From: a virus
Virus record (IMG/VR): IMGVR_UViG_3300021956_000077
Coordinates: 1 to 24,656 of that record
DNA: 24,656 nt
Direction: 5' to 3' (one strand)
Shown: positions 7,373 through 15,872 of the stretch, one piece after another
Numbering within the stretch: the first letter of the stretch is position 1
How the letters are laid out: the number at the start of each line of letters is the position of its first letter
Notes under the pieces: generated by a model
Told to the model about the DNA's origin: nothing
Seen by the model: only the letters and a program-made list of their open reading frames with translations
Database searches by the model: none
Made by a program: the position numbers and the translations under genes

Positions 7373-8062
7373 TCAAATGGGTATTATTTGCATACCAGAG
7401 GGTCTAAAGTTCTTTATGGGCTGACTGGCGGCCATAAAATATCGGCCCCCACCTTCTAGATTAAAAGCACCTTCCACTTCGGCATTTTCAATCCATAACC
7501 GGTAGTTCATTGTTTCACCATGTGTCCACATAACCATACTGGTAAATGGCGCCAGTTTCATTTTGCTAGTGCGATCTTTAAAGTTAAGTCTATAAGTGGC
7601 TTTGCCAATCCACTTGGTACAACTTAGATCATTGTAGTATTCCCAAGCCGATCCATATGCCAAATCAGTGGCCCACCCTTCGGGCAAGTTGGCATAGAAT
7701 TCACTGCGCTTGTTTGTTACACGCCATTTGAACTTTTGAAACACTGGATTGTTGTTGAAACTGATATCCATGTTGACAGCCATTCTAAGATATGTAGCAC
7801 CATCATGATCTGCACCTTTTGGGTTCAACAGACTCAAGCGCAGGTAACTGATTGAGTTGTAGTCAATCAATGGGCGCGATTGCACTATCTCCTTCCTAAT
7901 GGCCCTACAGTTCTCTGGTTCCGATTCTTTCGCTGAAGGCGAAAGGGGTGGTAGCACCGCAGGTGCGTCCTGTCTCGAAGAGATGCCGTAAGGCAACGGC
8001 GTGTCGCCGTTATTACTTCTTACTTCTTTCTTATTAAATATTACTTTTGCAGAATCAGCCAT
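7373..8062 (-). CDS. Protein of unknown function with a hairpin-rich disordered N-terminal segment (229 aa)
   Basis: The start ATG at 8062 has AGGAAAA seven to ten bases upstream and a late promoter 36 bases away. Residues about 17-50 are low-complexity (Pro, Ser, Gly, Asp) and are encoded by the cluster of five hairpins at 7928-8011. The remainder is aromatic-rich and looks folded, mostly beta (for example YLRMAVNMDISFNNNPVFQ and TSKMKLAPFTSMVMW). This composition would suit a virion beta-sandwich protein, but no family is recognised. The junction between disordered and folded parts makes it possible that the hairpin segment is a later insertion that kept the frame. Confidence 0.65.
   Translation of the reverse strand: MADSAKVIFNKKEVRSNNGDTPLPYGISSRQDAPAVLPPLSPSAKESEPENCRAIRKEIVQSRPLIDYNSISYLRLSLLNPKGADHDGATYLRMAVNMDISFNNNPVFQKFKWRVTNKRSEFYANLPEGWATDLAYGSAWEYYNDLSCTKWIGKATYRLNFKDRTSKMKLAPFTSMVMWTHGETMNYRLWIENAEVEGAFNLEGGGRYFMAASQPIKNFRPSGMQIIPI
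7928..8011. repeat. Cluster of five consecutive short perfect hairpins inside a gene
   Basis: Five palindromes follow each other within 84 bases. They are TTTCGC/GCGAAA (7928-7944, loop TGAAG), GCACC/GGTGC (7954-7966, loop GCA) and TCTC/GAGA (7973-7983, loop GAA). The last two are TGCC/GGCA (7984-7995, GTAA loop, a GNRA type) and AACGGCG/CGCCGTT (7995-8011, loop TGT). All stems are perfect with 3-5 base loops, and the segment looks more GC-rich than its surroundings. It is fully translated in the minus-strand gene as a Pro/Ser-rich linker. Such clusters resemble small palindromic elements that insert in frame, but I know no named family that matches. Confidence 0.8.
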
Positions 8063-8097
8063 TTGAATTTTCCTTTCATCTTTCTGTTAAGTACATT

Positions 8098-8105
8098 TAT
8101 TTATT
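8098..8105 (-). promoter_or_regulatory. T4-like late promoter (AATAAATA) for genes 8062-6919
   Basis: On the minus strand AATAAATA is followed by five bases and an A at 8092. The leader is 30 bases and contains AAAGGAAAA before the ATG at 8062. Confidence 0.6.
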
Positions 8106-8111
8106 ATAAAC

Positions 8112-8138
8112 AAAAAATAACCCCAGGAAAAGGGGTCA
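8112..8138 (-). terminator. Intrinsic terminator after the 64-residue gene
   Basis: On the minus strand a 5-bp stem, ACCCC (8136-8132) with GGGGT (8124-8120), is followed by TATTTTTT. It lies 12 bases beyond the stop of the gene 8150-8344 and just before the late promoter of the next minus-strand gene, so each unit is closed separately. Confidence 0.7.
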
Positions 8139-8149
8139 TTTTGATCAAT

Positions 8150-13679: not shown

Positions 13680-15304
13680 TGCTGGATCGCAGTTTACTAA
13701 TGCGTCGTGCCATTCGTTATGTCTGTGACCAGCATGGTCTAGCAGTCAACAACTTGGGCATAATGACATCTGACCAGCGAGCCCGTTTCGAAGAATTAGT
13801 GATTGCTGTGCAAGAAGACATGGCATTCAATCAATTACGATATTTTCGACCATTTGAACATCAATTACGATTCTTTGAAACTGGCCAGTCGGACCGTCGT
13901 GGCATCTTGGCCGCCAACCGAATTGGTAAAACAGTAAGCACATGTTATGAAACAGCCATGCACCTGACAGGCCAATATCCCGAGTGGTGGACTGGCAAGC
14001 GATTCGACAAGCCTATCACTGCCATGGTTGCTGGTGAAGGTTGGGGTCAGGTCGCAATGGTTCTGCAAAATGAACTGTTGGGCACACAAGATATCAAAAT
14101 AGCAGACGCCATTGGCACAGGAGCCATCCCTCGTGACAACATAGTGTTCGACACCATGCGTAACGATGGTGCCAACTGTCTTGGTGTCGAAGTGCGCCAT
14201 CAATCGGGTAGCAACAGTTACCTAGTGTTTGCCAACTACACACAGGAAGTGCGTCAGATGCAGGGTTTCAAATTGACACTGGCAGTATTTGACGAACAGC
14301 CACCCGATGACTTCTTCTCAGAAATTGTTACTCGAACTGCTACTACACAAGGTCAAGTGCTTTGTTCGTTCACGCCCTTAAAAGGTCTTAACGGTCTTGT
14401 ATCAAAGTTCTGGAACAATGAAGAAGGTTACAATCACATTCGTGTAAGTTGGGATGATGTGCCAGAATATGATCCCTGGGGCGAACCATTCTTATTAAAT
14501 TCAACGAGGGCACAACTTGAGCGTGATTATCTACCACACGAGCGCGATGCTCGTCGCAATGGTGTTCCTGTTATGGGCAAAGGAGCAGTATTCCAAATTA
14601 GAACATGGCCCACTTACCGGACTGGCGATTATGATTTCCGCAACAGTCATGGTCTGCATCGTATTATTGCTTTGGACCTGGGACTTGTCAATGACCGCAC
14701 AGTGATCTCACTAATGTATTGGGATCCAAACGAACGAGAAGCCTGGTTACACACACAGATAGTTGTGAAAGGTGTAGAAGAGGCCAACCCCATGAACTAC
14801 ATCAATCATCTAATGCGCCCAGAAGTATTCGGCACTCCTATTGTGTTGCCTGCTGATGCGTCAACACCAGGACGATATACAATGTCGGCCTTAAGCATTA
14901 GACAACTGTTTGAACAGTATGAATTGAATGTGCATCCAGAACCTATCATGAATCCCGCAGATGATCAAGGACGCAGAACCAATCATAAATCGTATGGTAT
15001 AAATGTCATGCGACAAATGTTGGAATTGGGCACATTACATGTCAATGAAAACTGCACAGAATTCTTACGCGAAGCACAAAACTATTTCGTTGATCCACAG
15101 GGACGATTTTCGGATCCAGATGACGCCATCGACAGTTGCCGTTATGCCTTATTAGGATGCCTAAATGGTATCAGTGAAGAATTTGATAGTCGCAGTCCAC
15201 AACAACGCTTCCGTGATGCTCGACACAATGCACAAGTGGCACGACTACGCAATGAACGTGAACGTCCCGCATGGAAACAAGTCTACAACGCAACAGGAAG
15301 TTAA
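13679..15304 (+). CDS. terL: Terminase large subunit
   Basis: This 541-residue protein has the full set of packaging-motor motifs. Walker A is AANRIGKT (78-85). Walker B is LAVFDE (201-206), with the catalytic Glu at 206. The coupling motif is SFTPLKG (230-236). The nuclease domain starts with the strand IIALDLG, with D333 as metal ligand, followed by PADAS (D392) and a cluster SDPDDAIDS (478-486). The ATPase part pumps DNA into the procapsid at the portal and the nuclease cuts genome units. Length is usual for the family. It is coupled to the gene before it (TAATG) and followed by a methyltransferase gene after one base. Confidence 0.95.
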   Translation: MLDRSLLMRRAIRYVCDQHGLAVNNLGIMTSDQRARFEELVIAVQEDMAFNQLRYFRPFEHQLRFFETGQSDRRGILAANRIGKTVSTCYETAMHLTGQYPEWWTGKRFDKPITAMVAGEGWGQVAMVLQNELLGTQDIKIADAIGTGAIPRDNIVFDTMRNDGANCLGVEVRHQSGSNSYLVFANYTQEVRQMQGFKLTLAVFDEQPPDDFFSEIVTRTATTQGQVLCSFTPLKGLNGLVSKFWNNEEGYNHIRVSWDDVPEYDPWGEPFLLNSTRAQLERDYLPHERDARRNGVPVMGKGAVFQIRTWPTYRTGDYDFRNSHGLHRIIALDLGLVNDRTVISLMYWDPNEREAWLHTQIVVKGVEEANPMNYINHLMRPEVFGTPIVLPADASTPGRYTMSALSIRQLFEQYELNVHPEPIMNPADDQGRRTNHKSYGINVMRQMLELGTLHVNENCTEFLREAQNYFVDPQGRFSDPDDAIDSCRYALLGCLNGISEEFDSRSPQQRFRDARHNAQVARLRNERERPAWKQVYNATGS

Positions 15305-15305
15305 T

Positions 15306-15872
15306 ATGTTTTGTCAGCCAGGATATGAATATTTTACTCAACAACTTGCACACAGCCCTTACAACTATTTGGAGATTGGCGTGTTCAATGGCGACAGCAT
15401 TGCGAACCTTGCCCGAGCGTTTCCCAACCTGCACATATATGGCATTGACCCGTTTGTTGAAGATGGATGCACAACACATACCACTGGAGTTGAACGACAC
15501 CAGCACATGCCACAGCAACTGGAAAACACATATAACAACATCAAGGATCTACCTAATGTTTTGTTGTTTGAACAGTTCTCAAGTGATTTTGCCAACACAT
15601 TAACTGATGCCACTGTGGAAGCCATGCGTGTTGGTTCGGTGCTAATCGATGGCAGTCACCATTATGAGGATGTTATTCAGGATGTGCATTTGGCCATGCG
15701 CCTAATTGGCCCAAAAGCCGGACACATTGTATTTGATGATGTAAACTTGCCAGGCGTTGCACAAGCATACCAGGAGTTTTTGTCTCAATATGCTGGTCGT
15801 TATGAACCAGTTGAAGACCTATATGATTACCATCCAGGTCATATACTTGCACATGCAATCCTGCCGGAATAA
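15306..15872 (+). CDS. Class I SAM-dependent methyltransferase (Methyltransf_24-like)
   Basis: The start is the ATG at 15306, which follows ACAGGAAGTTAAT. The frame is open 47 codons farther back, but that part overlaps the terminase end. The 188-residue product has motif I LEIGVFNGDS (22-31), the acidic end of strand 2 in YGIDPF (D48), and IDGSHHYEDV (114-123) followed by IVFDDV (141-146). These are hallmarks of the Rossmann methyltransferase group that includes Methyltransf_24, whose members often methylate small molecules or sugars. No DNA-methyltransferase motif (NPPY or PC) is seen, so it is probably not a DNA modification enzyme. It sits between terminase and portal. The target is unknown. 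Confidence 0.82.
   Translation: MFCQPGYEYFTQQLAHSPYNYLEIGVFNGDSIANLARAFPNLHIYGIDPFVEDGCTTHTTGVERHQHMPQQLENTYNNIKDLPNVLLFEQFSSDFANTLTDATVEAMRVGSVLIDGSHHYEDVIQDVHLAMRLIGPKAGHIVFDDVNLPGVAQAYQEFLSQYAGRYEPVEDLYDYHPGHILAHAILPE

Follow-up and report, generated by a model that had tools for sequence, protein, structure and literature searches.

The window, by which we mean the whole 24,656-nucleotide stretch of IMG/VR virus record IMGVR_UViG_3300021956_000077, is a fragment of an SU10-type podovirus in which the portal (SU10_portal), the major capsid protein (SU10_MCP), and the large terminase are recognized. Its minus strand encodes a 229-residue protein whose coding sequence carries a row of five mini-hairpins near the start codon. 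Six homologs of this gene were found, all on uncultured viral contigs (L002, L130/L219, L116, L223, L058, and L221), with protein identities of 45–71% to the window copy (W); the seven sequences compared here represent about three lineages, a small number of independent cases, and all come from metagenomes. The features of the window copy, with the hairpins written as the plus strand, are:

7373–8062, minus strand: host open reading frame of 229 amino acids, with a conserved core from Cys52 onward
7927–8011, minus strand: mini-hairpin array of five stems, codons 18–46; the sense strand is the minus strand and the template strand the plus strand
7927–7945, plus strand: H5, CTTTCGC-TGAAG-GCGAAAG, with GAA at the loop center flanked by T.G
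7954–7966, plus strand: H4, GCACC-GCA-GGTGC, a cGNAg loop; overlapped by alternative stems at 7947–7958 (GGTG-GTAG-CACC) and 7960–7972 (CAGG-TGCGT-CCTG)
7973–7983, plus strand: H3, TCTC-GAA-GAGA, a cGNAg loop; GCGAAGC stands at the same position in L116, L223, L058, and L221
7984–7995, plus strand: H2, TGCC-GTAA-GGCA, a cGNNAg loop on the template strand
7995–8011, plus strand: H1, AACGGCG-TGT-CGCCGTT, sharing base 7995 with the H2 stem; cGNNAg loops occupy the homologous position in L130, L116, L223, and L058
8012–8051, minus strand: conserved leader TGCAAAAGTAATATTTAATAAGAAAGAAGTAAGAAGTAAT; the 35–39 nt from AAAAG to the array contain no C in any of the seven copies
8060–8062, minus strand: ATG start codon, with a conserved Shine–Dalgarno sequence (AAAGGA/AAAGGG) at 8071–8076
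8103–8108, minus strand: TATAAT-like −10 element of a putative own promoter, from reading the sequence
8114–8142, minus strand: intrinsic-terminator-like hairpin after the upstream gene, directly before the putative promoter

The protein family gave no convincing match to Pfam, PHROGs, or PDB sequences, and the AlphaFold model of the 229-residue protein, with a mean pLDDT of 34, is too poor to use. No homologs were found in deposited phages and no relatives in prokaryote genomes; the array with its leader likewise had no convincing match among deposited phages, and Rfam 15 gave no match at gathering score in the window or at five homolog loci. A scan of the region upstream of the gene returned no sigma-70 match and no scoring −35 element. 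Translation is unlikely to begin internally at the ATG/GTG that aligns near codon 60, given that the upstream ATG keeps its Shine–Dalgarno sequence in all seven copies and that L002 has GTC at the aligned position.

The window copy of the hairpin gene is inverted in place and runs opposite to its neighbors and the terminase gene (orientation being judged by neighboring genes), whereas in the other homologs compared (L014, L058, L116, and L223) it lies on the terminase strand at an equivalent place. In the window, an HNH endonuclease gene lies near the hairpin gene. At least nine relatives that yielded no copy of the hairpin gene also have an HNH gene at this site, and we therefore rejected a coupling between the two. 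Elsewhere in the window, an open reading frame between the terminase and portal genes (15165–15872) looks like a SAM-dependent methyltransferase by sequence inspection only. The contig that carries L002, G001 (also L013/L014), is 33,978 bp long with a 127-bp direct repeat at its ends and looks complete; it encodes an Fe/Mn superoxide dismutase-like protein (L014:16384–16893; Pfam Sod_Fe_C, E 3e-21) and a small open reading frame matching Pfam Adhesin_E (L014:11345–11740; E 2e-6). Record IMGVR_UViG_3300002091_000037 (L022 and L023, 54,495 bp) contains two large-terminase genes, each 81% identical to that of the window, and represents either joined relatives or a chimeric assembly.

The first-pass annotation had described five perfect mini-hairpins inside the gene at 7928–8011, at a density far above that of the surrounding DNA. 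The five hairpins are confirmed, with the array starting one base earlier, at 7927. By simple stem density it ranks first in the window, although its score of 26 against maxima of 20–25 in eight whole-window Markov shuffles places it only marginally beyond chance across the whole window. When stem density is weighted by G+C, the array is the highest in ~0.9 Mb of related phage DNA (43 vs. a null maximum of 35). Folded as RNA, the array forms all five hairpins with a z-score of −4.4 (0 of 200 shuffles equally good); folded as DNA, it gives about −5.3 on both strands, and none of 1,000 synonymous recodings of its peptide folds as well (z = −5.7).

The decisive evidence that the array is real is comparative: the same architecture recurs in all seven homologous copies. 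Each has a Shine–Dalgarno sequence and ATG, an AT/purine-rich leader of ~40 nt, a row of mini-hairpins, and the conserved core; the alignment of homologs that had been proposed as a check revealed the segment in every copy. The leader TGCAAAAGTAATATT is present in every homolog, L223 differing by one base at the leader start, and is partly read in another frame in L058 and L221 than in the other five copies. Despite several indels, all seven copies have an uninterrupted reading frame from the ATG to the core, which is true of no other frame. The first-pass suggestion of a small palindromic mobile element inserted in frame is not borne out as such, given that the array sits at the same place in every homolog and that a search for the same hairpin series elsewhere found no second array in the ~2.1 Mb of DNA fetched. 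The exact H1 17-mer has eight matches in viral contigs, approximately the number expected by rough estimate; a 20-mer GGCC/GCTTCGC string matched genome contigs once, in a Lentisphaerae MAG with no array there, and was discarded.

Substitutions in the segment do not follow the pattern of a selected peptide. Among codons for the same residue in W and L002, 3 of 32 differ in codons 1–46 compared with 66 of 132 elsewhere. In four comparisons, changes in the N-terminal segment are evenly distributed over codon positions 1/2/3 (12/10/13, 12/12/14, 13/16/17, and 5/5/4), whereas position 3 is favored in the core (36/34/96, 53/45/90, 49/41/100, and 19/10/46). Since the nucleotides are conserved, the peptide is not, and the frame is kept, the segment is very probably translated and constrained for another reason; on this comparative evidence, what is maintained in the array and leader is nucleic-acid structure and not the peptide. 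The pattern that the first-pass annotation had singled out as contrary, the same peptide with synonymous changes destroying the stems, was not seen, the stems being largely kept while residues change. The even codon-position spectrum would also suit translational bypassing, with ribosomes jumping over the array in the manner of phage T4 gene 60, as would the structured RNA in the N-terminal segment, the basic peptide upstream, and the HNH gene close by. We nevertheless regard bypassing as highly improbable: the frame from ATG to core is in register in all copies despite the indels and the shifted leader frame, no copy has a stop after a take-off codon, and the HNH gene is also present where the hairpin gene was not found.

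The stems themselves are preserved through sequence change. Between L058 and L221, 10 of 77 array positions differ, six of which form three compensated pairs; the other four are split equally between loops and spacers. None of the 20 stem pairs is lost, an outcome that random placement of the same changes achieves in 0.027% of trials. W and L002 differ by three double changes (one at the inner pair of H1 and two in H3) plus several broken pairs. Between W and L130, the 57-nt tract from H3 to H5 is identical at 56 of 57 positions and ends on both sides at hairpin borders; H1–H2 matches at only 14 of 28 positions, with the break at a hairpin border, and the gene cores differ at about one third of positions. 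Whole hairpins have thus likely been exchanged or replaced between related phages, which is the part of the mobile-palindrome idea that survives. The double changes, the whole-hairpin replacement, and the unequal divergence of W and L130 are also what we would expect if the array had no selected function, its palindromes having been perfected by template-switch (quasi-palindrome) mutation, swapped whole, and tolerated in a linker. We consider this unlikely, however, given that the array is confined to this gene and position in every homolog, that the G and A of the loops are conserved although template switching preserves no loops, and that the leader is conserved as well.

Loop sequences were counted in the 19 distinct array hairpins whose stems are at least 4 bp long and whose loops have 3–4 nt. 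The template (+) strand has cGNAg or cGNNAg loops in 12 of these and the complementary motif in none, compared with a background in related contigs of 98 of 5,035 (2%) for the motif and 50 of 5,035 (1%) for its complement; in 2.1 Mb, no sequence other than these arrays has three motif hairpins on the same strand in a 120-nt span. The inner loop bases vary while the G and A are constant: in four homologs, the H5 position is a hairpin with a 6-bp stem and a cGNAg loop (GAA, GTA, GTA, and GCA), and the H1 position has the loops GCCA, GTCA, GCTA, and GCCA, the last closed by T-A. Hairpins outside the motif, which weigh against a motif-based reading, are H1 of W (loop TGT), H1 of L002, and a GGCC-AAGA-GGCC hairpin of three homologs; in L002, no motif hairpin reaches a 4-bp stem. 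Most GNA triloops fall in one codon phase (NNT NCG), so that a preference for Ser/Thr/Ala codons might contribute to the strand bias; the GNNA loops at H1 occur in two phases and are therefore free of this caveat. Other GNNA/GNA hairpins in related phages lie near small open reading frames or in intergenic DNA (L057 and L059 1627–1773, L019 584–627) and include AGATCTC-GTAA-GAGATCT and the reverse-oriented AGATCTC-TAGC-GAGATCT.

We favor a role at the level of DNA because the array loops match stable DNA hairpins, whereas UNC and UNNC, the form they take on the mRNA, are not to our knowledge stable RNA loops. The cGNNAg sequence is a stable DNA tetraloop motif, and the GCGAAGC at H3 of four homologs is the classical extraordinarily stable DNA mini-hairpin. 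Stems of only 2–3 bp of the cGNAg kind melt at 76–88 °C (PMC10527192). The broken pairs of L002 are mostly G.A, T.G, and A.A on the template and T.C, C.A, and T.T on the mRNA side; the template-side mismatches are milder for DNA, a point in favor of the DNA reading. A point against it is that folding with DNA parameters gives similar z-scores for the template and sense strands.

The main rival is an element acting in the mRNA after an A-rich, unstructured start region, either as a binding site (e.g., for the gene product in translational autoregulation), as a ramp at which ribosomes pause, or as a stabilizer of the transcript, and it retains the first-pass proposal of an RNA structure that slows or redirects translation near the start. 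The sense-RNA fold of the window array, the C-free leader, which favors an open start region, and the constant orientation of the array relative to the gene and its direction of reading are all consistent with such an element. We see it as a real but lesser possibility, based on the UNC/UNNC loops, the absence of an Rfam match, stems that are nearly all Watson–Crick (an informal look at the compensated changes showed no replacement by G-U), and sense-RNA z-scores that are weak in L221 (−0.4) and L002 (−1.7), where DNA parameters give −1.7/−2.4 and −3.5/−3.1, respectively. Alternatively, the template-strand sequence might function as a small antisense RNA transcribed outward from the gene body, which would contain GNA/GNNA hairpins and end in a pyrimidine-rich 3′ stretch. 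The T.G pairs beside GAA loops would be U-G in such an RNA, and in W, H1 and the T-rich stretch complementary to the leader together receive a terminator-like score; however, GCCA, GUCA, and GCUA are not GNRA tetraloops, the z-scores are no better than for the sense strand, and the tail is interrupted by C, which makes an antisense RNA very unlikely.

The GNA side of the array is on the template strand in W as well, even though the gene is inverted there, so the choice of strand follows the gene. This fixed orientation relative to the gene argues against a role linked to fork direction or packaging, and the lack of a GC-skew switch at the array locus leaves a replication origin unsupported.

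Taken together, we propose, with a probability of roughly 40%, that the array is a template-strand DNA hairpin element that perhaps, as the target of a protein, gates transcription of its own gene. Of the three ideas in the first-pass annotation, a site for a DNA- or RNA-binding protein is the most compatible with the data, and the loop chemistry points to template-strand DNA as the bound form. In this model, the duplex would be opened by negative supercoiling or by transcription from the putative promoter ~100 bp upstream, the AT/purine-rich leader being the easily melted part. The cGNAg/cGNNAg loops would let the template strand fold into unusually stable hairpins, while the opposite strand would fold less well and could be kept open by a single-stranded DNA-binding protein in the manner of N4 promoters. 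We infer that the template strand folds in this way in the cell; that the folded template is recognized by a protein, perhaps the 229-residue product itself, and that it gates transcription of its own gene are the least certain steps. The encoded Pro/Ser/Ala/Leu stretch would be a tolerant linker that needs only to keep the frame. We are cautious about the complete scheme, a DNA switch inside a gene whose hairpins are melted out, recognized by a protein, and control expression while the ribosome reads through them as a linker, and regard it as doubtful.

Several known systems share features with the array. Rickettsia palindromic elements are palindromic sequences translated inside genes as in-frame inserts; the array differs in being a single locus, present in all homologs and not dispersed, with neither further copies in unrelated genes across the ~2.1 Mb searched nor empty sites among the homologs. 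The short palindromic repeats of green-algal (Volvox) organelles are similarly short hairpins with 3–5-nt loops, and they have TAAA/TTTA loops in many intergenic and intronic copies (PMC2670323); we rejected this parallel because the loops differ. T4 gene 60 likewise belongs to a phage and has, near its N-terminus, a structured segment whose peptide is not under selection, yet frame 0 of the array runs without a stop into the core in every one of the seven copies. A T4-like homing-endonuclease cassette is also unsupported, the HNH gene being equally present in relatives without a hairpin gene found. The d(GCGAAGC) mini-hairpins have the loop motif in common with the array, and their very sequence occurs at H3 of four homologs, but what is known of them is a physical property of short DNA molecules, not a conserved array within a gene.

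Functional single-strand DNA folds in double-stranded phage genomes are known to us mainly from the promoters of phage N4, whose virion RNA polymerase has ~3,500 residues. No open reading frame of such size is present in the complete-looking G001, where the largest encodes 869 amino acids, which counts against machinery of the N4 type; the window itself is a fragment. Profile scans of a subset of the G001 open reading frames found no polymerase or primase. The N4 promoters resemble the array in having a small stem, a 3-nt loop with 5′ G and 3′ A, a C:G closing pair, and a location on the template strand (PMC4496689). Without the loop G and A, which form a sheared G:A pair, and the closing pair, the N4 hairpin does not extrude or remain stable (PMC4496689). 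Several array hairpins have the N4-type combination of a 5–7-bp stem and a C:G-closed GNA triloop (GCACC-GCA-GGTGC, GAGAC-GAA-GTCTC, and CTTGCC-GAA-GGCAAG), while others have 4-bp stems or 4-nt loops. The array further differs from N4 promoters in that about five hairpins occur in tandem, inside a translated open reading frame and downstream of the start codon. If our reading is correct, selection within a gene can act on DNA structure and not solely on RNA structure or peptide; what is new relative to the N4 promoters would be an array with the same loop chemistry conserved inside a coding region.
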